NCBI GenBank assembly: GCA_020091685.1
Contig: CM034606.1
Coordinates: 34,987,874-35,051,873, forward strand
Direction: 5' to 3'
DNA length: 64,000 nt
Origin: Lutjanus erythropterus
Lineage: Eukaryota > Chordata > Actinopteri > Lutjaniformes > Lutjanidae
The position numbers were made by a program, and so were the translations under genes. The notes under the pieces are model-generated. The model worked only from the letters and a program-made list of their open reading frames with translations. It did not search any database and was not told where the DNA came from. Positions 9,074-63,819 of the stretch are shown piece by piece; within the stretch, counting starts at the first letter, position 1, and every line of letters begins with the position of its first letter.

Positions 9074-16782
<7,709 letters not shown>

Positions 16783-20985: not shown

Positions 20986-22165
20986 GACTCTAAAGAGTTT
21001 TGTGCATCAGTCTTTATTGATTTAGCTAAGGCCTTCAAGATCAACAGTTCTATTCTTGTTTGTAGGTTGGCTAGCATTAAGGTCTCTCTTCAGATACAGT
21101 CACAAAAGGTGCCCTCTAGAGCTCGATCCTAGGTCCCTCATTATTTTCCATTTATATAAATGATATAGTTTGTTCTGTTGGAAACTCATTTATCCATCTT
21201 TATGCAGATGATACAGTTCTTAATACAGACAGGCTCCCCCTGATGCAGTACTTCTTCTTTCACAGGGTCCAGCAGGTCCTCTCTACCCGAAATCTGCTGA
21301 ACACTACCACAACTAAGGTCATGTGGTTCAGTAGGAAGGGTTCGGTGCCCCTTCCACCACAGAATATCACTCCTCTTGTTGGGACTGTTCTAGACCAAGT
21401 TACTGAGTTTAAATATTTGGATATCTAGTGAGAGCACAGTACTCAGTCCTTCTCACACCACATTACAATACGATACAGTCTAAGGTCACATCTAACTTAG
21501 TTACTGCAAACTTCATCTCCTGCCTTTAACACTTGTTCTGCTCACTGTGTTCTGTTGAAAGAACAAATAGTGCACTTGGACAGTTGTCATTCTGTGGTGC
21601 TGCAGCCAAGGACCAGAAGGACCTGCAAAAAAACACTGAAGTCACAAGTCAGTTTTCAAGAACTCTGTTTTGGACTTTCTCACTGATGCATGCAACAGTT
21701 TCTTGACCCAGTAACATTTTTAAAACTTCTATCTGTCTGTTGCTCTCTGTTTTCCTGGTGCATGCTTCTTCTTGTTCTTTTTTCTGCTACTGTCATTGCT
21801 CTGCCTGTCCGTCTTGCTATTTGTTGGTCATCTGTTTGTTTATTTGTTGCCATTTGTTGTCTGTTTCGTTCTTGCTGTCATTGTGTCACTTTGTTTTGTT
21901 GCTTGTCTGATTGCTTTTAGCTGTTTCCTGTCCGTTAACCACCTGCCCGTGGCTGTTTACACTATATGTCTTTTATGTAATGCTTTTTGTGTGTGTTGCT
22001 GTCTTTTAACTTTTGATACCCTTTTGGTCCCCCCCCCTCCCATTTTTCAAAAAGCTCTTGTCTTTTGCCAGGGTGCCATTGTAAAAAAAATATATATATA
22101 TCTTAATCTAAATCTTAATGACTTTCCTGGTTAAATGAAGGTAAAATAAAATAAAAATAAAGTCA
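20986..22165 (+). mobile_element. Degenerate non-LTR retrotransposon (L2/Rex-like), 3' part
   Basis: Reverse-transcriptase landmarks survive in broken frames: a FIDLAKAF block near 21010-21040, a GLDP(R)SL-like block near 21120-21145, and a YADDT-equivalent region near 21200-21215 where the frame is shifted. A further open piece at 21243-21428 carries TTTKVMWFSRKG and EFKYLDI, typical of the end of the polymerase domain. The 3' end reads CCTGGTTAAATGAAGGTAAAATAAAATAAA, the usual tail of CR1/L2/Rex-type fish LINEs. It is clearly inactive. Confidence 0.75.
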
Positions 22166-23855: not shown

Positions 23856-25090
23856 ACTTAAAAATATTTGTGCGCTGCACTGGAGGGATTAAATGCACTG
23901 GACTGATGTTTGCTGCCACATTGGAATCTCAGACAAAACTCCAGGTGAAAGCCCAAAGTTTCAAGAACACTGAACTTAAACTTTATCCAAAATTCTCCTT
24001 GGTGAGATACTGCAGCAGATGATAGATTTATCTTTAGCAGTTGACTGTGGCAAAAAGCACCCCTCACTGAAGAAAGATACAAAAATCTCCCAAAGAATCC
24101 ATCTGAAGCCTCACACCAAGTCAGTGAGAGCTTTTTTAGAGTTTTGCTTTTTAACTTTGAGTGATCATTAACTTTATTAAGCTTATTATATTGAACACTG
24201 CACGCTGTCTGCTGCGCTCAGCAGCGGCATCTGATCGCAAACAGAATACTGAACCTGTCTCTGCTCAACAGAATGACTTTGAAAACATCAAGTGACTTAT
24301 TTTAATGAATTGCATTAGTTTAAAACATTACAAATTGTAATATATCACTTCCCTGAGGCTGTTCAGTCAGACAGTGACAGATCACAGACTGAACTTAGCA
24401 TTTCATCCTCTCAACTGGAACAAAGGTGAAGCTGTATGTGCTGCACACAGTTTATCTGATGTTCATTATGTTGTTTAATGTTGACATGGCGTAAATCTGC
24501 CTTAGTAATTATTAATCATTACTAATTATTAATACCACTAGATAACAGACTGAAGTGGTCAGGTTTGGGACCCATATACACTGGGATACTGTGCTTCTGT
24601 TCCTGTGATAGAAGATATATAATTTTGATATGATGATATTATTCTCTACTCCTCAGCACATCTAACCAACTGATCAAAAGGGGGTCAAGTTGAATTTTAG
24701 TGAAATAAATGTTAACATGACAGCATCAGCAACCCTTGTTTCTTTATTTCATTGACATAAATCATATTCATTTTTCACTCTATATTTCTCCTGTTTTTAA
24801 TTACACACTCATTAATCATTAATTCTAGGATTCTTAAAGACGTAAATTAGGTGTGTCTGTGAATGATTCAGTGACCTGCATCAGAAGAGCTGGAATGATT
24901 GTAATGATTCAGCCGTTATTAGTCCAGCATGTGCTCACAGCTCACTTCACAAACGACGCTCTCCTCACCACACAGATACTATATACATGAACACATCCAG
25001 TGAGGACATCATGGCAACACAAACACAACATAGCGTCAGACAGGTGTTGGGTAAGCAGCATCCTTTGACCCCCCGCCTCTTCCTCCGTGC
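23856..25090. other. Upstream region of the cytokine-like gene
   Basis: No gene was recognised. A stretch at about 24061-24136 resembles the exon-like stretch at 29935-30010 (see findings). Direct runs of TTAATCATTACTAATTATTAAT lie near 24505-24535. Confidence 0.4.
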
Positions 25091-25096
25091 CCTACG

Positions 25097-25160
25097 TGAC
25101 GTCCAGCCCCTCAGAACCAGCTCATTATAAATAACATCCGTCATGACTGTGATGGAGAAA
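25097..25160 (+). promoter_or_regulatory. TATA promoter with CRE-like site for the cytokine-like gene
   Basis: A TATAAATA box at 25126-25133 predicts transcription starting about 25-32 bases downstream, near 25152-25165. A TGACGT half-site (CRE/ATF type) lies at 25097-25102, about 25 bases upstream of the TATA box. TATA-driven, inducible promoters are usual for cytokine genes. The start site itself is inferred. Confidence 0.65.
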
Positions 25161-25345
25161 CTCCAAGATCTTCATCCTCCTCATCTGCAACAAGTAAGTC
25201 ACTTCACCCCACTGTGTGCTCCACCTGCACATGGCTCCGTCTTCACAGACTGGATTAGCTTCACTTTTCAGAGGGCTGTTTTGTCTCCTTTAAGCACCGT
25301 CACGCCTGTCTTCACACCGTCCTTCTGTTCTCTGCACAGTGGTGA
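25143..25345 (+). other. Possible upstream reading frame overlapping the split start
   Basis: ATGs at 25143 and 25152 share one frame. After splicing of 25193 to 25340 that frame reads 18 or 15 codons to a TGA at 25343-25345, overlapping the main start codon. It matters only if transcription begins upstream of these ATGs, and the TATA position suggests it may begin at or after them. Confidence 0.4.
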
Positions 25346-27587
25346 ACTGGATCCTGTGTCTCACCTCCGTCTGCATCATGTCCTGCTGGCTGACCTCTGC
25401 AGCTCCACACTATCCTGTGGCACAAACAGCAACCTGTGATCATGATCGCACCAAGCTGGAGGAAGAGCTGGAAAGTACAGCAACTATCTTAAATTTAAAC
25501 GTAAGTCAAGGATATACTTATTGAAATTTTTCTGTGATGTGATTTCTGTCTCAGATGGGGATTCATCGTCAACAATCAAGTTTTGCAATGTGAAATTGTT
25601 CTCCACAAATATAACTTGTTGCTTCATCTACTAGAGCCTGACAGTTAAAGATATCTCTGCTTTAAATCTGTAAATATCTGCACATAGTTGTTGCAGATTT
25701 TTTGAGGGTTAGGAGGGTTATCTTAAAAATGGATTCTAATACAGTAACTAATTACCTGTTAAAAAAAATTTAGTCAGTAATATAATCACAATATTAAAGT
25801 ATCCATGAAATGACAGAAATGGGTAGAAAATGTTGATCAAAGCTCAAGACGACGTCCTCAAATGTCTTGTTTTGTCCACAACTCAGCTCAAATTAGATAA
25901 TTCTTTAAATCAAAAATGACTCAAAACAATGAATCAATTATAAAATAGATGAAGATTAATTTAATAGGTGATTAATGATTGATTAATCATTTCAGCTTTA
26001 AGTGTTTTATGTTTGTTGTTGGCTTGTAGTTTGTCCAGCTGTTCCTTCTTTTGATGTGTGCAATTTATTGATTTATCAGTTAATGTTGAAAATGTTGAAA
26101 TTTCCACCCAGTGAATCATTTTTTCACTAGAGGTCATGATAATGAATTAGCAGCTGTGTGTGCACTGTGCATGGAAGGATATTGTTCTTTATTTTAAAAT
26201 TGTCATCCTACTACTACTACTCATAATAATTACCATTATTCCTAAATGTATCTGTAATCTGATACATCTTTTAACTAATGAAATACAGTTAACTGTATCC
26301 AGATTACTGATAATCCCATGGTATAGATTGCCATGTAATCTTATCCTGGTTTTATTTTTTATATGCAAGTTTGCATGCAGTATATTTCTCATTTGTGATA
26401 TATTGATTCTAAAAAAAAAAAAAAAAAAAAAAGTAGGTGGAGTTTCACAGAAAAACAGTGTTGCAGAATCTCCCAGACAGTTCAAGAGCATGTTGACCAG
26501 AATGGAAAAACACAAATCTCTCCATACTGCTCTTCTGGTGTAATCCAAGTCTCCTAAAGCCCTCACATACCAAGCTGATTTGAAAGACATCATTTCCAGC
26601 ATGTTTTAACCTGAATCTTCACTGTAGGTCCTTAACACGTTCACATGCACACTGTCTGAACTGTGTGTGTGTGTGTGGTATGACAGTGTGTGCACTAGAA
26701 GGAAAGGGAGGAAACTTAGATTACACTAGACAAGCAGTATGGTGGCATTTTATGTTGTTTTTCAATTGTTTTTTTTTTTTTTTACATTTGAAAACTGTAC
26801 TCCATTCACTTCCATTGTTTGGGAGATTCTGCAACACTGTTTTTCTGTGAAACTCCAGCAGTGTTTTGTGAACTAAAAAAACTAAACCTGACCTTCAATT
26901 GATATAAGGGTGAGTAGAATTTTCATTTTTGAGTTAACTATCCCTTTAATTAAGATTGTCACACTGATTTAAACCATACTGTCCCGTCCTACTAGCAGCC
27001 TTATATTCAATAGCAACATTTTTTTTACTGTATAACATCTTACTGTGTTTACTCAGGTTAATGTCTAATGTCATGTTCTTCCATCTTCTCTCTGACAGGT
27101 TACAGACGTTCAAGGCACTGATGTAAGTTTGTCTGTATTAAATGTACACTGATGAGAGTGTGTGTGTGTGAGTGCATCATATTAAGGGTAAATAATAACT
27201 TGACAGAGTGTGTATATGAATAATGAGTGAGGCGGTGTGATTGCAGATGATGTGCATGCTGAGGAGAGCAAACGCTTGTGAGGCAGACCTGAGTGACTCT
27301 TTAAAAATGTTTGCACGAGACTTTGAAGAATGTTTGGTTTTATTGGTAAGTTGGACGAGTCTGTATGTTCGTGCAGTCATATATATGCTTTACATCCAGC
27401 CAGCCTGTTCTAAAGCACAATGTGAAATATGTTACAGGACCGTGCAGCTTCAAACTGCAGCTGCCTCGAGCCTCCCAGTGACGACTTCTCCAGACTGAGA
27501 CAGAAAGAGGCTCTGCTCCTCACCCTGAAAGAGCACATCAGACAGGCTGGAGGAGCACCACAGCCTCCTGCTGCTGCTGCTGCCTGA
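25193..27587 (+). CDS. Small secreted protein, probable short-chain helical cytokine
   Basis: Exons: A of the start codon at 25193, then 25340-25500, 27099-27122, 27247-27345, 27438-27587. The initiator ATG is made by splicing A onto TG. The protein is 144 residues. Residues 1-21 form a signal peptide (hydrophobic NWILCLTSVCIMSCWL, then TSA). The mature part has six cysteines (33, 65, 73, 91, 102, 104), N-glycosylation sequons at N54 (NVT, spanning an exon junction) and N101, predicted helices from KLEEELES, DLSDSLKMFARDF and KEALLLTLKEHIRQ, and an Ala-Pro-rich tail. All internal introns are phase 0, with small exons. Size, cysteines and gene structure resemble class I short-chain cytokines (IL-2/4/7/9 type). 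I could not assign a member, and another secreted helical peptide is possible. It lies between cdk1 and ctu2. Confidence 0.75.
26432..26947. repeat. Palindromic repeat family B, copy 2, in cytokine-like gene intron
   Basis: Opens with GGAGTTTCACAGAAAAACAG and later carries the inverted block CTGTTTTTCTGTGAAACTCC (26838-26857), so the arms can fold on each other. It ends GAGTTAACTATCCCTTTAAT. A poly-A run of about 22 (26411-26432) lies at the left edge, and a (TG)n stretch is in the loop near 26663-26677. Confidence 0.75.
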
Positions 27588-28332
27588 CAACATCTACACA
27601 ACTGATTACTGGTTCGGCTGCAGCAGCAATATATAGTTATAATATTTCAGGTCAGACTGTTCCTGTGATGTAAAGCATACAGGGTATCTCTTTGCATGTT
27701 CGTTCTATTTATTTGAAATACACTGCAGTGACTTATTTTCAGAGAAAGTCATGCATCCATTCAGCTTGAATTATACTTCTTCAGTGTCTTCATCCTCTTT
27801 TTGGCAAATTGTAAGTAAGTGCTGTGCCCTGCAAACAAACTCTTCAATCTGTCGTAAGTCTACTCATGTATTCTGCTGTATTATAGATACTTTGCTATTT
27901 TGTAATTCCCAAACATTTATTTTATACATCTATTTGTATATATTGTTTCACTGTATTACTTCACAGTAATTGTAGAATCTGTTTCTTACATACTGAAAAC
28001 TTCTGTAATATTAATAACTAACATCTCAAGTTAATGAATCCACAAGCTGAGCTGAATATATTTATTATTTTTTTAAATAGATTTTATTAAATTATTCATA
28101 TGCTGTTTGTTTGTTATTGGTGTTATCTGTAATGCAACAACAATAATGTTTAGAAAAACATTTTTCTTATTACAACCTGAATATTTAGTTAAGACTAGAA
28201 GTGAAAGAATTCCATAACTACTAGAATGATCATGTGCAGGGTTACCAGGTCTGCAGTTTTCAAGTGTTGCCGTGGGTAAAAATTTTTTGTCCATTTTGTA
28301 TGCAAATTACATGAATGATATCCATGAATAAA
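27588..28332 (+). promoter_or_regulatory. AU-rich 3' UTR and polyadenylation signal of the cytokine-like gene
   Basis: ATTTA pentamers lie at about 27707 (in TATTTATTTG), 27915, 28060 (in TATTTATTATTTTT) and 28182. AATAAA follows at 28327-28332. Such AU-rich elements mark unstable mRNAs, including most cytokine messages. The extent of the UTR is inferred from the first AATAAA. Confidence 0.55.
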
Positions 28333-30784
28333 GATTTATATTTTGAATCAAATGATGTGTTCATACCCAAATCCTATCAAACTGACTCCAGGCCATATCA
28401 ACACATACACACGTGCATGCACACACATATTTACTGTAAGTATATGATAATAATATGGCAAAGTAACATGAGAAGGTGTCTGAGTTGCAGTAAGGTATTG
28501 CATTAACTACTAATGAATTAAAAACAGTACAGTTATATTGTCCAGGCAGGCAGGGAGGAACAGGAGAATCTGACAAGACAAAGCAACAGGTTAGTTTGTG
28601 TTCTCAGCTAAATTATATTTATTATAATATACTGTATGTAATCACACAAGGCTGTTTAAGGACCGAGGGGAAAGAAGAGTTCTGGGGAAACTGCTTTTAA
28701 TGCTGGCACACTAAACATATATGGTGTTAATTTGTAGATATTATAATACATTTTTCAATGATAGCATTGCTGTTGGACATTAAAAACAGTGACATTTGGA
28801 CATTAAAAACAGTTTCTCTTGTGCCCCCTCATGAAAAATAATTGCCCACCCCTGGTTTAAACAATTAGAGAAGGGGTGGAGGTTGAAGCTGCAAGTGTTC
28901 TACGTGCTTAATTAGAGGTTGCAAATAGATTTTAATTTGGAAATTGTCCCATACAGGTTATGTTGAACTTTTTCCAGTTTCATGAAGAAAAGAACATCCA
29001 CTATCCATTCTGAGTGTGTAGCTGGAGAGGAACATCATGTAGATATATGTTTGATGGTTTTGTTTTAATGTTGTTGTATTCCACTGCTTTGCTTCCTTTC
29101 ACTTTGTCTAAAATTAAAAGTGAAAGCCAAAACATGCGAGAACTTTGGAAAAATACTTCATCTGAAACACTTCTGTAACTGTCTCAGAGACATGTTTTAT
29201 TGAAATTTCATTGAAATGTTTATTTTCATATTTTCTGTCACAATTTCATTAATGTTAGTTATCAAACACTGATTAAAATGTCATAAATACGTTTTAAAAA
29301 AGGTAACTGATTTGAAAATGATAAAATATAAAATACACCACCTTAAAAATACTGTTGGGTTAAAAAAATACATTGCTCTTTATGTAAAGTTTATTTTGAT
29401 GTAGTGCAACAGGTCACATGACCAGATTTTAGTCAGGGGCTCACCTGATGCATTATGGGGAAATGCAACACAGGTGCAGAGAGCCAACATGGCTGCAGAG
29501 GAAATACATATGGCACCAAAATAACCATATTCTGCACGGTCCAAGAGGTGCACATTATAATTTATCATTTTATACTTTCAGTTGTTTCATACCTCTGTAA
29601 TATTTGTTTAAGTGCTTTTAGATGTACAGTTCAATGCATTTTCTGATGTGCTAACTTGTTGGGATCTGTCTATCATCTGATGTTATTGTGAGAGAGTATT
29701 GTTGGGCCTGTCTAATACTTGACAGTTGTTTAAGGGACTTTAAAATGGTTAACAGATTTATATTTCAGGCCTTGTTTTTTATGTCTTTTATTTTTTGTAG
29801 TTTTCAGTGCTGATGAACAAAAGTGTGTTATTTCATTGGCCTGATGTAGTTAGTACTTCCAGGTTAAACAGCTGACTGGCAGGAGCAGCTGCATGTGATG
29901 GATTTAGCTTCAACATGAACAGTATGTCTCTCAGAGCAGTGAAGAAAGACGTCAGAATCTCCCCAAGAATCCCCACCAGAAAACTACCATCAAGTGAGTG
30001 AGAACTTTTTTTTTTCCAATTCTTTATTACTCATTTTAAGGTAAATAAAGCAGAATGAACATGAAGTCATATGAAAAACATACAGGAAGAACACTAACAA
30101 TCAAACAGACAGTGCCAGGGGTTACATTCAAATTGTGAAAGACAAATAAAAAAGATGTAATAAAATGATATCAAAAAATAAATTAAAATCATAATAAAAT
30201 CTTAAATTTGGAGCACAAATTTAAGGTTCCCACAGCTTTTCTGTTGCATAAAGTTCATCATGTTCTAATGTAGGATTATGTGTCCTTTTTAAAGGTACAG
30301 AAAAATGGTTTGATTTTTGGATATAAAACCTGGCCAGCAATGATGTGATGACACAAAAACAACTCATTTTCTAATTATCTGTTATAACTTGTAAACTCAA
30401 ACAGAGTACAAAAGCATCATAGATATTATAGTCCAGTATAAAGAGACAGATATCTTGCCATAGGAGACAGTCTCTAGGTGCAGTCTCTTTCATATGGGAC
30501 AGAGACACAGTCAGGAATATTGTGAGGATTTTTCTGTCATTTTTGCAGGATGCTGGTAGAAAACAGTTTTCCTATTGGTGTGTTAGCTGGGTCAAGCAAA
30601 GGTGTCATAGTAGAGGGTGGAAAGGCACAATCTTTATAGAGCATGATAACCCCAGATGGAACAGCATCAAAAACCACTACAAACTGTTTAGGAATTTTTC
30701 ACAGGAATCTTACAATGACTGATGACAACCAGAAAAAGTCATTGAAAAGTTGACTCAGCAGCATGATACCATTCCTGAACCAAC
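28333..30784. other. Intergenic with one exon-like segment
   Basis: No gene could be assembled. A short open segment (29918-29991) starts with ATGAACAGTATG and ends before GTGAGTGAG, a good donor, but no acceptable downstream partner was confirmed. The remaining sequence is AT-rich, with fragments of unrecognised repeats. Confidence 0.35.
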
Positions 30785-31345: not shown

Positions 31346-32389
31346 AGAACCACTTGCAAATTTCTTGCAAAGTGTTGTGTACAAGTGATTCAGGAGAATT
31401 CGTCACATTCACGTTTTCTCATATTTTGAATTATCTTTCAGATATGAACATAATTCCTGAGTGGTGCGGGGCGCCCCTATAAAAAAGCCCAAAAAATAAT
31501 CTTAAAAAAAAAAAATTCCTGAGTGGTCCAGACCTGTCAAAGAGTCATGTGCAGTCAGTCTGCTGGTATCCAAACCACACTTTTCCACTAATGACTGAAC
31601 ATTTCATTAGTTTGAAGACATTTTGAGTTAAAATAAATTACACTTCATAATTGTCAACATGATCCTGTTTGACTACATTTAAAATTATAATATTATTGTA
31701 AATTTACATATAAAGTCTCACATCATTAATTTAATGATCTATTATTACCTGCTGTATATCTGCACATACAGGTTGATGAAGTCTCTGTCCAGGAGAACAT
31801 CTTCATTTATTCCATCTCAGATGTCCGTGATGAAAACTTCCCCTGACCCTCTCCTCCTGATGCAGTCATCACTCACCCTTTACTTTGGCTGTGGTGAGTT
31901 GTTTTTTTTTTTCTATGAAGTCATTTTCATAAATACATTTAGTCTGTATTTCAGTGAAGATGTGACCCTCCTGTAACACAGAATTAACAGCACTCGCTTT
32001 TGCTGTTTCTTTACTTTAGCAGTTTTTTTTTTATTCCACTGGTGACGCTGTTAAAATGACAGATTTTACTTTGTGGATCTCTGAAAGCAGGACGTTCTTC
32101 TTTTCACTGTTTGATGCCATTTTCATGAATGAGCACTTCCTGACACACAGGACAGGAAGTGCACCATCATATGGCATCATTGAGGTGTTAATTATGCTAA
32201 TTTTACAAGTCTCTTGCACGTACACTCAGACTCGCACAGGTGGATCATTTACAGTTATCTGAAGTTATGAGTGTTTGAATCTGACATGACATGTTCATAC
32301 GAGCCCTTCATATGAAAAAAGTAAGAGAAATTTAAAATAAGAATGTGAAAATGTTCTTGCATGAGGTTTTTAAACTTAAAAAAAAAAAG
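31346..32389. other. Intergenic with an exon-like segment at 31772-31893
   Basis: 31772-31893 is bounded by a plausible acceptor (CACATACAG) and donor (GTGAGTTG). One frame runs open through it; another is open for 23 codons and then stops. No homology was recognised, so it is not called as a gene. Confidence 0.3.
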
Positions 32390-32792
32390 ACTGGAAAAAA
32401 AACATAAAATGCCTCCATACTGCAACATGCTGTTTGCACACTGTCACATCACACACAGTTCAGACAGTGTGCACATGAATGTGGCTCCAAGCTAAAGATC
32501 TACAGTGAAGATTCAGACTGAAAACATGGCCAACTTGGTATGTTGGGGCTTTAGGAGACTTGGATTACACCAGATGAGCAGCATGGAGGCATTTTATATT
32601 TTTATTGTTTTTTTTACATTTGAAAACTGGTCACCATTCACTTCCATTGTTTGGGAGATTCTGCAACACTTTTTTTCCTGTGAAACTCCAGCAGTGTTTT
32701 ATGGACTAAAAACCTAAACCTGACCTTCAATCAGCATGAGGGACAGTAGATAATGCCTGAATTTTTATTTTTAGGTTAACTATCCCTTTAAG
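32390..32792. repeat. Palindromic repeat family B, copy 3
   Basis: Contains AAAATGCCTCCATACTG and, inverted, CAGCATGGAGGCATTTTAT, then CCATTCACTTCCATTGTTTG, and ends AGGTTAACTATCCCTTTAAG. The arms face each other around a loop near 32450-32560. Confidence 0.75.
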
Positions 32793-37100: not shown

Positions 37101-40100
37101 AATTTAACAACCCAGAAAAGCAAAACTCCGTGTCTACACTGCATCACATCAGCATCATGCTCGCCAAACTGAAGCATCTGTCTGTATAGGTTTCATCCAC
37201 ACATTTCAAAGCAGCGGCACTTTCCATATGGTGTGCAATTTTCCTTCAATACATATGAATATTCCTGATCTATTTTTCCATCAACATGATGCATAAGATT
37301 GTGGCATAAGAACTGCAATGTGAAAAAGAGATAGAATCCCGGTGGCTACACTCAAGGCGGAGACATTAACGTTTGACAGACCTTAGACCTTTAGGTATCA
37401 ACCACAAGAACTCAGCACAAGTAGTACCAAAACTTGTCCTGTCAAATAATAACTGCATTCAGTCCATTTCTAGAAAAAGACCGTACAGTTTTTCTTGCAG
37501 CCAATTATGGAAAATGTATCAATTTAATGCAACATGTGACTGACCCACCACTGCAGCAGCTACAACTCATACAGTCTGTGGTGAGGTGAAGTCTAACACA
37601 GTGTGTTTGACAGCGTTGGCAATTCAGTGTTCCAGATGCTACCAAAACAGTGTGAAGTATGGCTATACCACACACCTGTGGCATCTGATAAAAATAAATG
37701 CATGAAATGTGAAAGATTATTGCAGGAATTCTTCCATTCACATGATGGGTATTCAAATGAAGTAGTTTTCAACTATCAAATGAAATTCTCTGTTGTGATC
37801 AGTATCACTTTAAGGGTACTGGTATTGTAATTTTTTAAACAATACTCAGCCCTCGCTATGAAACTGTCCAGTGGCAGTAATGTACAGTGAAGGTTACAGC
37901 TTGCCCATAAACAAACACCACAGAAGAAGATCAGGAAGTTGCCCTGTCTCTCAGCTGCTGGGTGAAGTGTCAGGAGAGTCTGTGGGATTACAAAGTGGAG
38001 CAGAGTGAGTTGCTCTGCCTAATTTACAAAATGTAAATCAGTCATTCTTGAGAACTGGGACAAAACTGTATTTTGAGGGGATTTTGATTTTTACTCTTCA
38101 ATTATGCTGGAAAATAATAATACAATATTAAACGCTTGGCTATTAAACCTTGTAACAGACCAACCTCCAAGTGATTAAAATCTTAGAATTAAATGTAGAC
38201 ATCAGCTCCGCCAGATGGAAAATCTGACCCAGCTGACACACACAGAGCTGGTGCAAACAATATAATCTATTAAAATGAGTGTTTCTGTTGTGTGAGACAA
38301 GCGAGTGATAACGAAACATTGAGACAGGGGGTTGGGTCCTGCATGTGCATGTGCCTATTCTAAAAGATCTTGTACCCGTCTAAGAGCTACCTGTTCCATT
38401 CAACACTCACCAACAGTGGTATCCAGGGCACACATGCAGAGGAGACACCTGTCACTGTGGTCAGCTGTGGACGAGCTCTTACATGCTGTCTGCAGCTTCT
38501 CACTGGTCCTACAGGACACACAGCAGTTTTTTTTGTTTTGTGTGTGCAGAAAATGCTACATTGATTGAATGTTGCTAATAGTAAAAAAAAAGCAAGATGT
38601 AGTAAATATACTGTCCAGTTTCCATTATCCAGTACATCCAAACACTCACTTTGAGTATTTGTTGCAGAACACATGTATCTCTATGATGTCTGTAATCTCA
38701 TACTGACCTGTAGATGGTGCTGACAGTAGAGGGGAAGTCTGCCTGCAGTCTGGTGACAAAACTCTCTGTCAGACGCTGGATACTGGCCTTCTCTGTTGTC
38801 TGTGGGACAGACACAAACATTATTGACTTACTGACACAGTAAGACACAGCAGATCCCTCTGCAGCCTGCAGGCCTGATGTTACAGTCAGATCAGTTACTG
38901 CTGGTTGATGTTACCTTGGTGTCCAGGCTCGGGATGAAAACAGAGGGCACGTTGAACAGACGGTTGTAGTACGCGATTTCTTTGGCAGAGTAGTCCCTCA
39001 TTGGCCTCACTAATATTATGTCACCAAACCTGGAGTCTGAGAAACCCTGTTAACACAAACACACACACGCATGCACAAATAGATTAACATTATTTGCAAG
39101 GTTCAACAATAAGGAGTGGCTGCTTGCCTGACTTGGAAAGCGTTAAAAATAATTAAACTATTGCAATATTTTTTAATCAGTTAAACTGGCATTAACCACA
39201 AATCACTCTCATGCCTCTAACTGGTTCAGAGCACAGCAGTGAGGCTTCTTACTGGTTTCAGCAGATGACATTCATTGGCTCCCTGTGTGTTTTATAATTG
39301 ATATTAACATTTTACCAATCACTTTTAAAGCCTGTCTGGTCTCAAGTTACACAGTTGAAACACTGAGCCCTTATGAGCCAGTCTGCAGCCTTAAATCCTC
39401 GGGCGGGGCCTCCTGGCTGTTCCAAAGTCGAGGTTTAAATCTGAAGGTGCTTCTGCACTTTCTCCATCAGGACCCCTCGACTTCAGAACGACCTGCCCGA
39501 AGAGACCAGGCTGCAGAATCAGTTACATCTTTTAAATCACTTCTTAACACACATTTTTACAAACCTGCTTTTAATTGGTGTCATCCGTTCAATATATTTT
39601 AATCTTTATTCTTTTTATGTGTTCTCTTTTATATTGACATTATGTGATGTTGTCTTATTTTATTCCTTTTATTTATTCATATTTACTAGACAACATCATA
39701 TGATGTCTCTGCATTCTCTTCCTCTGTTTTCTTTTATTTCTTTTGTCATGTTATTCTTGTTTTGCTGTTCTTATCTCTCTTACTGTTTGTCCTTTGCTTG
39801 TGTCTTAGTTTTACTTCAGCTTTAGCTTATTTTTTTTCTTGCTCCAGTTTGACCTTATTGTGTTGCCCTTCTATTGTTACTTTGCCTCTGGGGTATCCTG
39901 CTCTAACTAATTATTCATGCAAAATGTCAGAAAAGGCTGGTTTCAGCCTCTCAAATATGGACATTTCCCACTTTCCTTCATTTATCATCACATTAAACTG
40001 ACAAAATTGAAACATTTCACGGCATTATCTTGGACTCTTGGGGTATTTTCTAACATTTTGTTGATATTGCAGCCCTGTATTAAACATGATGATTAACTTT

Positions 40101-59310: not shown

Positions 59311-61844
59311 GCAGCCCTCCACATGTCTCCCCAGTCGACTGCAGTGCTCAGGGAGAAAACAAGGCTGGCGTTCTGCAAAACTGAATACAATAAAATAAAA
59401 GCTGTCAGTCATCAGACAGATTAAAAGTGAATTCTCTCCCTCTGCATGTCAGCAGACTCAAGTGTAAGAAAACTAAGAAGAGTTCTGATGACAGGATCAG
59501 ACTACAATAGCAAAAACATCTTTAACAGAAAACTGGAAGCTTTGATTGGAGCTGAGTCTGAGAGCTCCACTTTGTGTATTTCTTATTTCTAACTCACTCA
59601 TGTAATGATTTCTACCTGACTGAGATTAGAGGTATCTGTGGGGAAACGGGCACCGGTGATCTGAGGCCATTTGCAGTCAATTAAGCGTTGACGTGTGACT
59701 GACGGGATAATGACATCATCAGCTCGCACCATCACATGAATCTGACTTGATATCAGATTACATTTGAGTGCAGTTAGCCAGAGGGGTGTGTTTGTGATCT
59801 GTCCCAGTCTGGAGCTGAAAAGAACAACAAAGAGCAGAGCAGACCTCAGGTAGCCTCAGTTCTATTTCCAGTTAAAGGGAAAATGCAGCTATTTTTAATC
59901 CTTTGCTGCTGATGGGGATGGATGAAACGTCAGGGAACACTAATATTCACTTTTCACTGGACTGTAGAATACACACACAACTGTACAGGGAAACAGCTGG
60001 CCATTAACTGACTCACCTCTCTACTGTGTGTTAAATATGTCACAGTTCAATCAGTCTCCCAGGGTCTCCAGTTAAAGGGACAGTTCACCCCAAAATACAT
60101 ATTTCCCCCTGGGCTGTAGTGCTTTTTATCCATTTAGATTTTTCTGGTGTGAGTTTTGAGCAGTTTCATGTAGAAACTATTTTCTTTCTAGTAGAAAGAA
60201 AATAGATCTGATAGATTCCATTGCAGAAAGAAAATAGTTCTTACATGAAACTGCATTTTGAAGCAAATTTGGATGAATTGTAGCCATTGTCTTGTTTCTG
60301 ATTTCTACAATGAAGAATCCTGAAAATGGAAGAATTTTAATTTCACCACTTAGACTCATGGGTACTGTGGTTTTTAATGGGCAACATGTAGGAAAGTGTT
60401 CATACCTTCATAGCTGTAGCATAACCCTTTATCATTTATGGCCAAAATGTTAATTTAATTAAACGAGTAGGCAACTGTAAGAAAGTCAGTGAGAATTTTG
60501 ATTCTGATTGTTGAAGGCACAGTTCAGCCCAAAATCAAAAATAGATATTTTCCTCTGCCCTGTAGTGCTGTGTATCCATCTAGAGCTTTTTCGTTGTGAG
60601 TTGCAGAGTTTTGGAGATATCAGCCGTAGAGATGTTTGCCTTCTCTCCAGTATAATGGGAATATAATGGCTTGTGGTGCTCAAAGTACCAAAAAATACAT
60701 TTTGAAAACCATGACCTGGTTATTCACGATAATCCACAGACCTTGTTGTGAGCAGTTTAATGTAGGAGTTACTTTCTTTCTAAATTAGAATCTACCAGAA
60801 CTACTTTTGTTCTGCTGCAAAGAAAGTAGTTCCCGCATGAAACTCACAGCAAGGTCTGTGGATTATCTTGAGTAACTAGGTAATCATTTTTGGATTTAGA
60901 AATTGCTGTTGAATTTTTCAAATTTGTTTTTTGGTGCTTTGAACTCCACAGGACTAGTGCCATTTAGTCCCATTATACTGGAGAGAAGGCAGACATCTCT
61001 ACAGCTGATATCTCCAACTCTGCAACTCACACCAAAAAAAAATCTAGATGGATAAACAGCACTACAGGTAAAAGGAGATATATGTATTTTTGATTTTGGG
61101 TCAATTGTCCCTTTTAAGTGCTTAAAAAAGGACAGCCCAAAAAAGATTTGCTAGTAACAGCTTTTCAAATGTTATATGAGCACATGGACGTACACTCACA
61201 TATTTTTACAACTGTCAATATTAATTAATTAAAGTTAATTAATTGATTTTTTTTAGATAAAAAATATCAAAATTCTCTGATTTCAGCTTCTTAAATATGA
61301 ATATTTTCTGGTTTCTTTCCTCCTCTCTGACAGTAAACTGAATGTCTTTGAGTTGTGGACAAAACAAGACATTTGAGGACGTCAACTGGGACTTTAATCA
61401 ACATTTTTCACCATTTTCTAACATTAATGGATCAAACAATTAATTGATTCAATGATTCATTAGTCACAGCCCTAAAACAATATATTCTGCTGAACAGTTG
61501 TGCTTTAGTAACACGTGAAATGTCACATTAAAAAGCCTATTCAGTTGACTCAGGTTGGAAGATAAATGTGTTCGAGGAAACAGAGCCGCAGTGCTTCCCT
61601 CTCCTTCATTACCATCACTGTGGTGGTTCCCTTGAGAACGATCTTAACCTTTCCCCCTCGGCTGATGCTCGTTCTCTGCTCCTCCAGGTTCTGTGGGGAG
61701 TGTCTGCAGCCATGTCTTCAGGTGACCTCGCCCCTCTGCCCCCTGTGTCGTGTTCCCTTTGACCCCAAGAAGGTGGAGCGTTCCTCCAGCGTGGAGAAGC
61801 AGCTGGCCTCGTATAAAGCTCCCTGCAGGGGCTGTAGCAAGAAG
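55141..61844 (+). CDS. rnf166: RING finger protein 166 (RNF166), first two coding exons; 3' part beyond window
   Basis: Exons 55141-55313 and 61688-61844 join in phase to give the N-terminal 110 residues. RNF166 is a RING E3 ubiquitin ligase, reported to act in antiviral signalling and bacterial autophagy. Visible: MAMFRS start; C3HC4 RING with CPIC (39-42), C55 and H57 (ASCAHTF), CGEC (60-63), C67 and CPLC (75-78); then FDPKKVE and YKAPCRGCSKK, the start of the C2HC finger. The exon border cuts the RING between H57 and C60. ATG 55141 is preferred since it gives MAMFRS like mammals, although an in-frame ATG lies just before it (55138). Later exons (second zinc finger, UIM) are outside the window. 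Intron 1 is 6.4 kb and intron 2 carries an L1 insertion. It is head-to-head with ctu2, as in mammals. Confidence 0.95.
55790..56840 (+). repeat. Repeat family C pieces around an inserted GGGCTGCA-type repeat
   Basis: The opening piece (55795-55856: GGGCTGCAACCATTATTTTC, GTCAATCGATCTGTCAATC) and the continuation (56555-56830: ATAAAATGTCAGAAAATGG, CAAGATGACGTCCTCACATG) are the two ends of one family C element. They are separated by about 0.7 kb that contains another repeat starting TTAGGGCTGCACACG (55911) and ending ATCGTGCAGCCCTAG (56221-56235). Nested insertion in rnf166 intron 1. Confidence 0.65.
57850..58390. repeat. Fragments of family C and ACTTGCC repeats
   Basis: Weak family C similarity at about 58090-58300 (AAGATGTCTTTAAATGTCTTC, GAAAGCAG blocks). 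An ACTTGCC-family fragment lies at 58310-58390 (TTAAATTTACTAGCCTGACATG, TTTTACTTGCCCCAG). No gene. Confidence 0.45.
58605..59116 (+). repeat. Repeat family C copy with internal duplication
   Basis: Starts AGGGCTGCAAGGAATGGTTATTG and ends GAATTATTGCAGTTC. The head-like segment recurs at 58775-58830, suggesting two overlapping or nested copies. Contains CAAGATGACGTCCTCAAATG and TTTACTGTCAGAGAGGAATAAAG. Confidence 0.65.
59245..59311. repeat. (CTGT)n microsatellite
   Basis: About 16-17 uninterrupted CTGT units in rnf166 intron 1. Long open frames across it on both strands are artefacts of the tetranucleotide. Confidence 0.97.
60072..60260. repeat. Foldback element, family A partial copy
   Basis: TTAAAGGGACAGTTCACCCC start, then TGGGCTGTAGTGC and a small palindrome around GAAACTATTTTCTTTCTAG. 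It breaks off near 60255 without the distal arm. Confidence 0.7.
60510..61117. repeat. Foldback element, family A copy, full length
   Basis: Left end TTGAAGGCACAGTTCAGCCC, right end TTTTGGGTCAATTGTCCCTTTT. Both arms are present, with AGAGATGTTTGCCTTCTCTCC against GGAGAGAAGGCAGACATCTC. It lies in rnf166 intron 1. Confidence 0.8.
61205..61480 (-). repeat. Interspersed repeat family C copy, inverted
   Basis: Carries TCTGATTTCAGCTTCTTAAA, CTCCTCTCTGACAGTAAACTG, ACAAAACAAGACATTTGAGGACG and GTCACAGCCCTA at its end (61475). It lies about 200 bases upstream of rnf166 exon 2. Confidence 0.7.
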
Positions 61845-62600
61845 GTACATACTGAACATTTATTAACCATGTCAGAAAATCAGAGCTGCAACTTTGATTA
61901 TAGGTGAATGTTTGGTACATAAGTGAATAATCATATTGTGACTGCATAGCAAACACTGATGTTTATGTATTTATTTATGTATTTAAAAGGATACCCATGG
62001 CACCAGCTAGTCTTCCTAGGGTCTGAAACCAGTTCATCATATTCATCATATATAGAAAATACCATATCTGTGTTAGTTCATCATGTGTGCACCTCTAATT
62101 GTGTTAAATTAAGAAAGTGATCCTTTAACTTTTCTTTGTTCATTCATACAGTGGAAGTACATGGAGTGAAAATACAGTGCACATAACATTTTACTTTGGT
62201 AGCATATGCAGTAAATAATTTATTTTACAGCTGCTGTGAGAAATTTATGGTGCCCTGAGGTGCAAAAGAAAAAAAATGAACAACAGAAGAAATAAACTTA
62301 TAATAACATAAGATAGCAAGAAACAAATCATTGACAAAACAAATCCACAAAATGCAAACACATATTGTTGATTGACATAAAGTCAACTGTTTCATTTCAT
62401 ATGGATAATTATTGATAAGAGAGACTTTGCCAATCCAGACCAATCAAAAGACAACACAACTTATGCATTTTCAAAGACCAGATGGAATAAGGAGCAGCTT
62501 AATAAACTGCCTGATTTCATGGCAGCTTTTATAAAAAGTTGCAGGAACAAGTGAAAATTGCAAAAGAAAATTTGGATTATTTTTTCATTTAATTCATTAA

Positions 62601-63819
62601 AAATTAAAGGCTGAATGTGTGACAAGGTGGAAAAGAATAGAAATAGGGACAATAGACACTGAAGTACGAAATCTAATAACACATAAAGGATTATTGAACA
62701 AATTAGGTAATCAATTGGATGTAATAACCAAAACTACAGTTGAAATATGGAATACAGTTGTTGAAAGGTATAAATTGGAGAAAGAGACCAAAATTCTGAG
62801 CTGGTTTGCATTTGATTCTAGGTTTGTACCTGGTAGGAACGATAACGGGTTCAAGGAATGGGTGAAAAAAGGCATCACTGCAATATGCACAGTGGTTGAA
62901 CGGGGTAAGCTGCAGAGTTTTGAAAAGTTAAGGGATAAATTTGGATTTGATGAACGCGAACGATATCAGTATTTACAAATGAGGGATTATTATGAGAAGG
63001 AGATAAAAACTGACAGAGACAATGAAATTATTGAGGTATTCCGGAAAGCTTATGAGGGGGGAAAATGCAGAGTAGTCTCAGCTCTATATAGAAGTTTGAT
63101 GTCATATAGAAAGACTTCCTCTCTTTACATAAAAGAAAAATGGGAAAAGGAGCTGAAGGAACAAATAACTGAGGAAGAATGGTTTAATATTTGTAAAATG
63201 CAGTGCACGTCCACTAGCTCTAGGATTTGGAGAGAATTCAATTGGAAAAATATGATCAGATTTTTTATAACTCCAAAGATTAGGAAGGAACTGGTGTTTA
63301 ACCAACAACCATGTTGGAGATCATGTGGTCACATGGATGTGCATCATACACACATATTTTGGTCTTGCCAAAAGATAAAAGGATACTGGGATAAGATATG
63401 GTGGGGTTTAAGAAAAATAATAGGATATGAGATACCCAAAACATGCAAGATACTCTACTTGGGAAATCTGACACAAAACACAATACAAAAAGAGGATGAG
63501 TACCTTGTAAAAGTACTGTTAATGGCAAGTAAAAAAGCAATTACAAGATTATGGTATAAAGTGGAACCACTGACAGAGGAGCAGTGGATGTGCATTGTGG
63601 AAGAGATATTTGTAATGGAGAAACTTACACATAAACTGAGATTACAAGAGGCACAATTTAATGAAAAATGGACTGATTATAGAACACAAGAAGAGGACAC
63701 CACCACCACCGCTGGTGACATTGACATAAGGATAACTGCTTGATGATGTATGTATGTTGCGCCCTGACAATGTAATTATAGAAGGACAATTTTCAATAAA
63801 ATATAAGTTAAAAAAAAAA
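62601..63819 (+). mobile_element. 5'-truncated L1-like LINE, C-terminal ORF2 (about 380 codons)
   Basis: An uninterrupted frame (from 62601 to the stop at 63741) encodes the C-terminal third of an L1-type ORF2 protein, downstream of the reverse transcriptase: ERYQYLQMRDYY, KCRVVSALYRSL, and the L1 zinc-knuckle region with QPCWRSCGHMDVHHTHIFWSC (Cys-Cys-His-Cys pattern), then TCKILYLGNL. A short 3' UTR with AATAAA (63795-63800) and an A-tail (63809-63819) follows. The polymerase and endonuclease are missing, as usual for 5'-truncated insertions. It sits in sense orientation in rnf166 intron 2. The intact frame suggests a fairly recent insertion. Confidence 0.85.

Follow-up and report, generated by a model that had tools for sequence, protein, structure and literature searches.

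A candidate gene for a short-chain class I cytokine in the cdk1-ctu2 interval of Lutjanus erythropterus

Results

Gene structure and predicted protein

A 64,000-nucleotide stretch of the teleost Lutjanus erythropterus (contig CM034606.1 of assembly GCA_020091685.1, positions 34,987,874 to 35,051,873; hereafter the window, whose own numbering is used throughout) carries, between cdk1 and ctu2, a protein-coding gene model whose product is probably a small, secreted short-chain class I cytokine (Table 1). Splicing of the window sequence bore out the structure described in a first-pass annotation, namely five exons encoding 144 residues and a stop codon, six cysteines in the mature part, two N-glycosylation sequons and phase-0 internal introns. 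The introns measure, in order, 146, 1598, 124 and 92 nucleotides; the first splits the start codon (A/TG) and the three in the coding part are all in phase 0. Each of the four donors is GTAAGT; the forward strand of the 64 kb has 14 occurrences of this word, these four included. Splicing also places the start codon in the context ACAATGG, with A at -3 and G at +4, and this strong context arises only through splicing.

The TATA box and cyclic AMP response element (CRE)-like word proposed as the promoter are both present, 29 nucleotides apart, and form the sole TATAAATA/TGACGTC pair within 60 nucleotides on the forward strand of the window. From distance alone, transcription is estimated to start near 25156, about 30 nucleotides past the TATA box; ATGs at 25143 and 25152 would precede that start.

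Table 1. Coordinates of the candidate gene, its presumed regulatory motifs and its neighbours in the window
Feature	Positions	Strand	Basis and remarks
cdk1, upstream neighbour	9074..16743	+	Seven tblastn pieces with human CDK1; Pkinase 4.1e-19 for one exon
CRE-like TGACGTC	25097..25103	+	Pattern match, upstream of the TATA box; one of five on this strand
TATA box TATAAATA	25126..25133	+	Pattern match; one of six on this strand
Exon 1	25156..25193	+	Short 5′ leader; donor CAACAA/GTAAGT; ends with the A of the start codon; 5′ boundary inferred
Exon 2	25340..25500	+	Signal peptide and presumed helix A, through residue 54; acceptor 14/17 pyrimidines; hydrophobic core ILCLTSVCIMS
Exon 3	27099..27122	+	8 codons, VTDVQGTD, presumed A-B loop; acceptor 14/17 pyrimidines
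Exon 4	27247..27345	+	33 codons, presumed helices B and C, cysteines 65, 73 and 91; acceptor 6/17 pyrimidines
Exon 5	27438..27587	+	CxC (102, 104), presumed helix D, Pro/Ala-rich tail, stop; acceptor 7/17 pyrimidines
3′ untranslated region	27588..28332	+	ATTTA at 27707, 27915, 28060 and 28183; ATTAAA at 28086; AATAAA at 28327; end inferred
ctu2, downstream neighbour	38701..39049	-	Two stretches (gene extends further); PF10288 CTU2 2.1e-09 for 38701-38910
Probable rnf166	61566..61907	+	Open stretch with part of a RING finger; 83% over 53 residues (61689-61847) to human RNF166

We searched for comparable exon chains, requiring GTAAGT at the donors, YAG at the acceptors, three coding introns in phase 0 and a product of 110 residues or more. 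The search covered 62 overlapping 4-kb segments (31 per strand) and 4000 dinucleotide shuffles of the segment at 24001. Only that segment, 1 of the 62, yielded models, and the 13 found there were related: exons 3 and 4 were common to all, and exon 2 ended at 25500 in 11. Among the shuffles, 3/4000 gave any chain model. A stricter acceptor rule (8/15 pyrimidines) had produced no model anywhere, missing the real gene, and was loosened to 5/15; because this was done with the gene in mind, the result is partly post hoc.

The predicted protein opens with a signal-like N terminus containing a hydrophobic core (hydropathy and reading by eye). Cysteines 7, 12 and 16 fall in the signal region and cysteines 33, 65, 73, 91, 102 and 104 in the mature part, with sequons at N54 and N101. 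Past residue 30 the most hydrophobic 19-mer averages 0.66; there is no second strongly hydrophobic segment, and the product is therefore predicted to be secreted. By hydropathy it resembles short-chain class I cytokines in being a secreted protein of about 110-150 residues with a signal peptide and no other membrane segment, and its four coding exons and three phase-0 introns follow the layout of that class, with an extra intron splitting the ATG. Of the four presumed helices, whose bounds were set by eye, C is the one with significant periodicity (3/2000 shuffles).

Database searches and evidence against a cytokine

A number of results weigh against this assignment. Neither Pfam nor PDB sequence searches, run with the whole and the mature protein, returned a cytokine match. 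As a control, the published gar IL-5famA was passed through the same Pfam scan and drew only DUF2028 (E 0.015) and no cytokine family; the silence of Pfam therefore means little. Alignment to 12 human cytokines, IFN-gamma among them, gave nothing significant after allowing for the number tried, the best local scores being those of IL-9 (32/1000 shuffles) and IL-2 (39/1000) and the best global that of IL-21 (92/1000). The first-pass annotation could not match the protein to IL-2, 4/13, 7, 9, 15 or 21; that it fits no named family holds for Pfam, PDB, the human cytokines and gar IL-5famA, although tests of this kind are weak for fast-evolving proteins.

Within the gene itself, the presumed helices A, B and D, whose bounds were set by eye, were not amphipathic above shuffled sequences (1431, 609 and 1459 of 2000), and exon 4 is short for holding two helices. 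The splice sites had been called strong, which is true of the four donors and of the acceptors of exons 2 and 3 but not of all sites, because pyrimidines are few at the exon 4 and exon 5 acceptors (6/17 and 7/17, against 14/17). The 3′ untranslated region does carry four ATTTA words between the stop codon and AATAAA, as its description as AU-rich implied, and a fifth lies beyond that signal at 28334. At least four were also found, however, in 130 of 633 equal-length stretches of the forward strand; this density is ordinary for the window, and the motifs, which might influence messenger RNA stability, are therefore no special sign here. Lastly, codon use in the joined exons, scored with a training set of 376 codons, was equalled or exceeded by 39/3000 random window stretches (a background including the gene and the training exons), and the score of 0.026 in frame compares with 0.035 in the next frame. 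The frame is not singled out, and codon use therefore supports an exon-like composition rather than the reading frame.

Other candidates were considered and rejected. STING matches in the PDB (E 0.63-2.2) were not taken as identity, ATG17_like/NRBF2 in Pfam (E 0.03-0.14) fell far below the cut-off, and FLT3 ligand and the type I interferons were set aside on cysteine positions. A control alignment with elephant shark IL-26L was at chance (866/2000). Six short peptide patterns detected no relative in viral contigs. No cytokine of the cdk1-ctu2 interval was among the open-licence literature matches listed, and this is no evidence that the gene has gone unreported.

Genomic surroundings

The position between cdk1 and ctu2 given in the first-pass annotation was confirmed, with tblastn and Pfam for cdk1 and Pfam for ctu2, and rnf166 is probable; RING models in Pfam fall below their own cut-offs in the rnf166 stretch. 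The ctu2 stretch at 38894-39049 is without a Pfam match, and we take it to be ctu2 on likeness. The cdk1 exon at 9222-9377 reads PSTAVRE where human CDK1 has PSTAIRE; the same variant is known from other fish. Outside the exons of the candidate gene, tblastn of the window for a tandem copy gave nothing better than E 0.85.

Repeats are present within and around the gene. Intron 2 contains one at 26438-26949 with inverted arms (26438-26492 and 26803-26857) that are 89% complementary, and a related copy lies at 32378-32791; by its look this is a non-autonomous mobile element. The stretches 23858-24170 and 29850-30010 appear alike by eye, each with GAAGAAAGA followed by an ATCTCCC-type stretch, and are probably copies of one repeat. 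An open frame at 1085-1393 presumably represents the end of a Tc1/mariner transposase, and those at 21120-21428 and 62601-63743 are assumed to be pieces of a long interspersed nuclear element (LINE) reverse transcriptase or of its C-terminal part.

Discussion

We put the probability that this teleost gene encodes a small, secreted short-chain class I cytokine at about 0.7. The reading is carried by the exact gene model, the four GTAAGT donors, the rarity of such chains in shuffles and in other segments, and the spliced start context. It also draws on published genes. In the extracts of PMC4905449, IL-4, IL-13 and the fish IL-4/13 genes have four coding exons and three phase-0 introns, and salmonid IL-4/13 proteins have 142-153 residues, signal peptides of 17-24 residues, 4 or 6 cysteines and 0-3 sequons; sea bass IL-4/13A1 is given 144 residues and a 23-residue signal peptide in the excerpted text of PMC5440397. 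The present gene agrees with these in exon-intron layout, length, hydrophobic N terminus, number of cysteines and sequons, a likeness that supports the short-chain class I kind but does not name a member. What had been described as a typical package of that class stands in so far as the product is small and predicted to be secreted and the exons are laid out as in the class; it falls short in that only one of the four presumed helices is significantly amphipathic. IL-4/13, IL-2/15/21, IL-3/IL-5/GM-CSF and IL-7/9 are the candidate subfamilies.

The same shortfalls would also suit a real secreted gene that does not encode a helical cytokine, or a decayed gene no longer expressed: there is no cytokine family match, periodicity is weak in three of the four helix segments and two acceptors are weak. 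Against this, which we consider unlikely, the open frame, the four consensus donors and the spliced start are all intact. If the gene is a short-chain cytokine, it could tentatively be an IL-4/13 gene that has moved or a third copy in that family, whose fish members share its layout and size in the extracted sources. By eye, and at the corresponding exon positions, VTDVQGTD in exon 3 resembles VTDIFAASK of human IL-4 and the MMC at the start of exon 4 resembles MYC of human IL-13; moreover, exon 5 scored 164/3000 shuffles against the last exon of IL-13, as one of nine comparisons. The locus argues otherwise, as the extracts of PMC5440397 place IL-4/13 genes by POU4F3/RAD50 (A) or KIF3A/ATRX (B; zebrafish has KIF3A flanking it on a single side) and not by cdk1 and ctu2. 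Whole-protein alignments to IL-4 and IL-13, made with human sequences only, were at chance, and the C-x-C of exon 5 is without counterpart in either human protein.

Membership of the IL-2/15/15L/21 group, in which cysteine pairs would join the B segment and the C-D loop, is doubtful. C65 and C73, and likewise C102 and C104, recall the C-x6-C and C-x2-C of IL-15, but the spacings here are C-x7-C and C-x1-C. The additional cysteine pair brings to mind the third pair carried by IL-15L (PMC3894449, in extract). Exon 5 scored 84/3000 shuffles against the D region of IL-21, among the nine comparisons, and at low gap cost the whole protein reached 154/2000 against IL-15, whereas exon 5 was at chance against IL-15 and IL-2 (2374/3000 and 2226/3000). 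No L-x-T-P occurs in the 144 residues; that motif is not strict, as it is attributed to "many", not all, members of the group (PMC3894449, same extract) and human IL-15 has LYTE. IL-15L itself, an early candidate, is disfavoured by its locus, published as lying between PLEKHG2 and SUPT5H. A ligand of IL-3/IL-5/GM-CSF type, not previously found in non-cyprinid teleosts, seems improbable. A C-x7-F-x2-LRQ motif is common by eye to exon 5 and the D region of gar IL-5famA, and under three settings the alignment of the whole protein with the latter gave 62, 71 and 50 of 2000 shuffles. That alignment is out of structural register, setting the B-C part of the query on the C-D part of the gar protein, and exon 5 scored no better than chance with the D region of that protein (643/3000), as did the alignments to GM-CSF and IL-5. 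In addition, no cysteine follows helix D and the locus is not the T helper 2 (Th2) locus.

Returning to the short-chain cytokine, it is possible that the gene represents a separate lineage fixed at the teleost cdk1-ctu2-rnf166 locus, without a named tetrapod orthologue and perhaps serving as ligand of a fish receptor chain (such as the common beta chain or a TSLPR-like chain). According to the extracts of PMC4690019, teleosts have common beta chain candidates, and teleosts other than cyprinids yielded no candidate gene for IL-3/IL-5/GM-CSF; zebrafish TSLPR and IL-3R beta chains are listed in the excerpted text of PMC1963337. On this basis, receptors without an assigned ligand make a reasonable but unproven target. 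In the likely mode of action, TATA-driven, inducible transcription would be followed by secretion, after signal cleavage predicted near residue 22. The product may then adopt an up-up-down-down four-helix bundle held together by as many as three disulfides, and the ligand would pair two type I cytokine receptor chains to act through JAK/STAT on leucocytes. If this is correct, the fixed locus would hold a new short-chain cytokine and so offer a direct candidate for testing. It would further demonstrate that genes of this kind can escape profile searches, as the gar cytokine was likewise without a Pfam cytokine family match.

Taken with known systems, the predicted gene is like teleost IL-4/13A and IL-4/13B, as far as the extracts describe them, in its length of about 144 residues, signal peptide, three phase-0 coding introns, cysteine number (4-7) and ATTTA motifs. 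It is unlike them in its locus, in the extra 5′ intron that splits the start codon and in the C-x-C before the last segment, and it shows no significant similarity to human IL-4 or IL-13, the human rather than the fish sequences having been compared. With IL-2, IL-15, IL-15L and IL-21 it shares two cysteines within the B segment, another two that lie near each other ahead of helix D, and the phase-0 layout, and differs in the absence of LXTP, in cysteine spacing and in lying away from the PLEKHG2/SUPT5H locus of IL-15L. Gar IL-5famA and the IL-3/IL-5/GM-CSF proteins resemble it in size and in having a cysteine early in the B segment and another at the start of the last segment; the lack of a cysteine after helix D, an alignment off register and a different locus set it apart from them.
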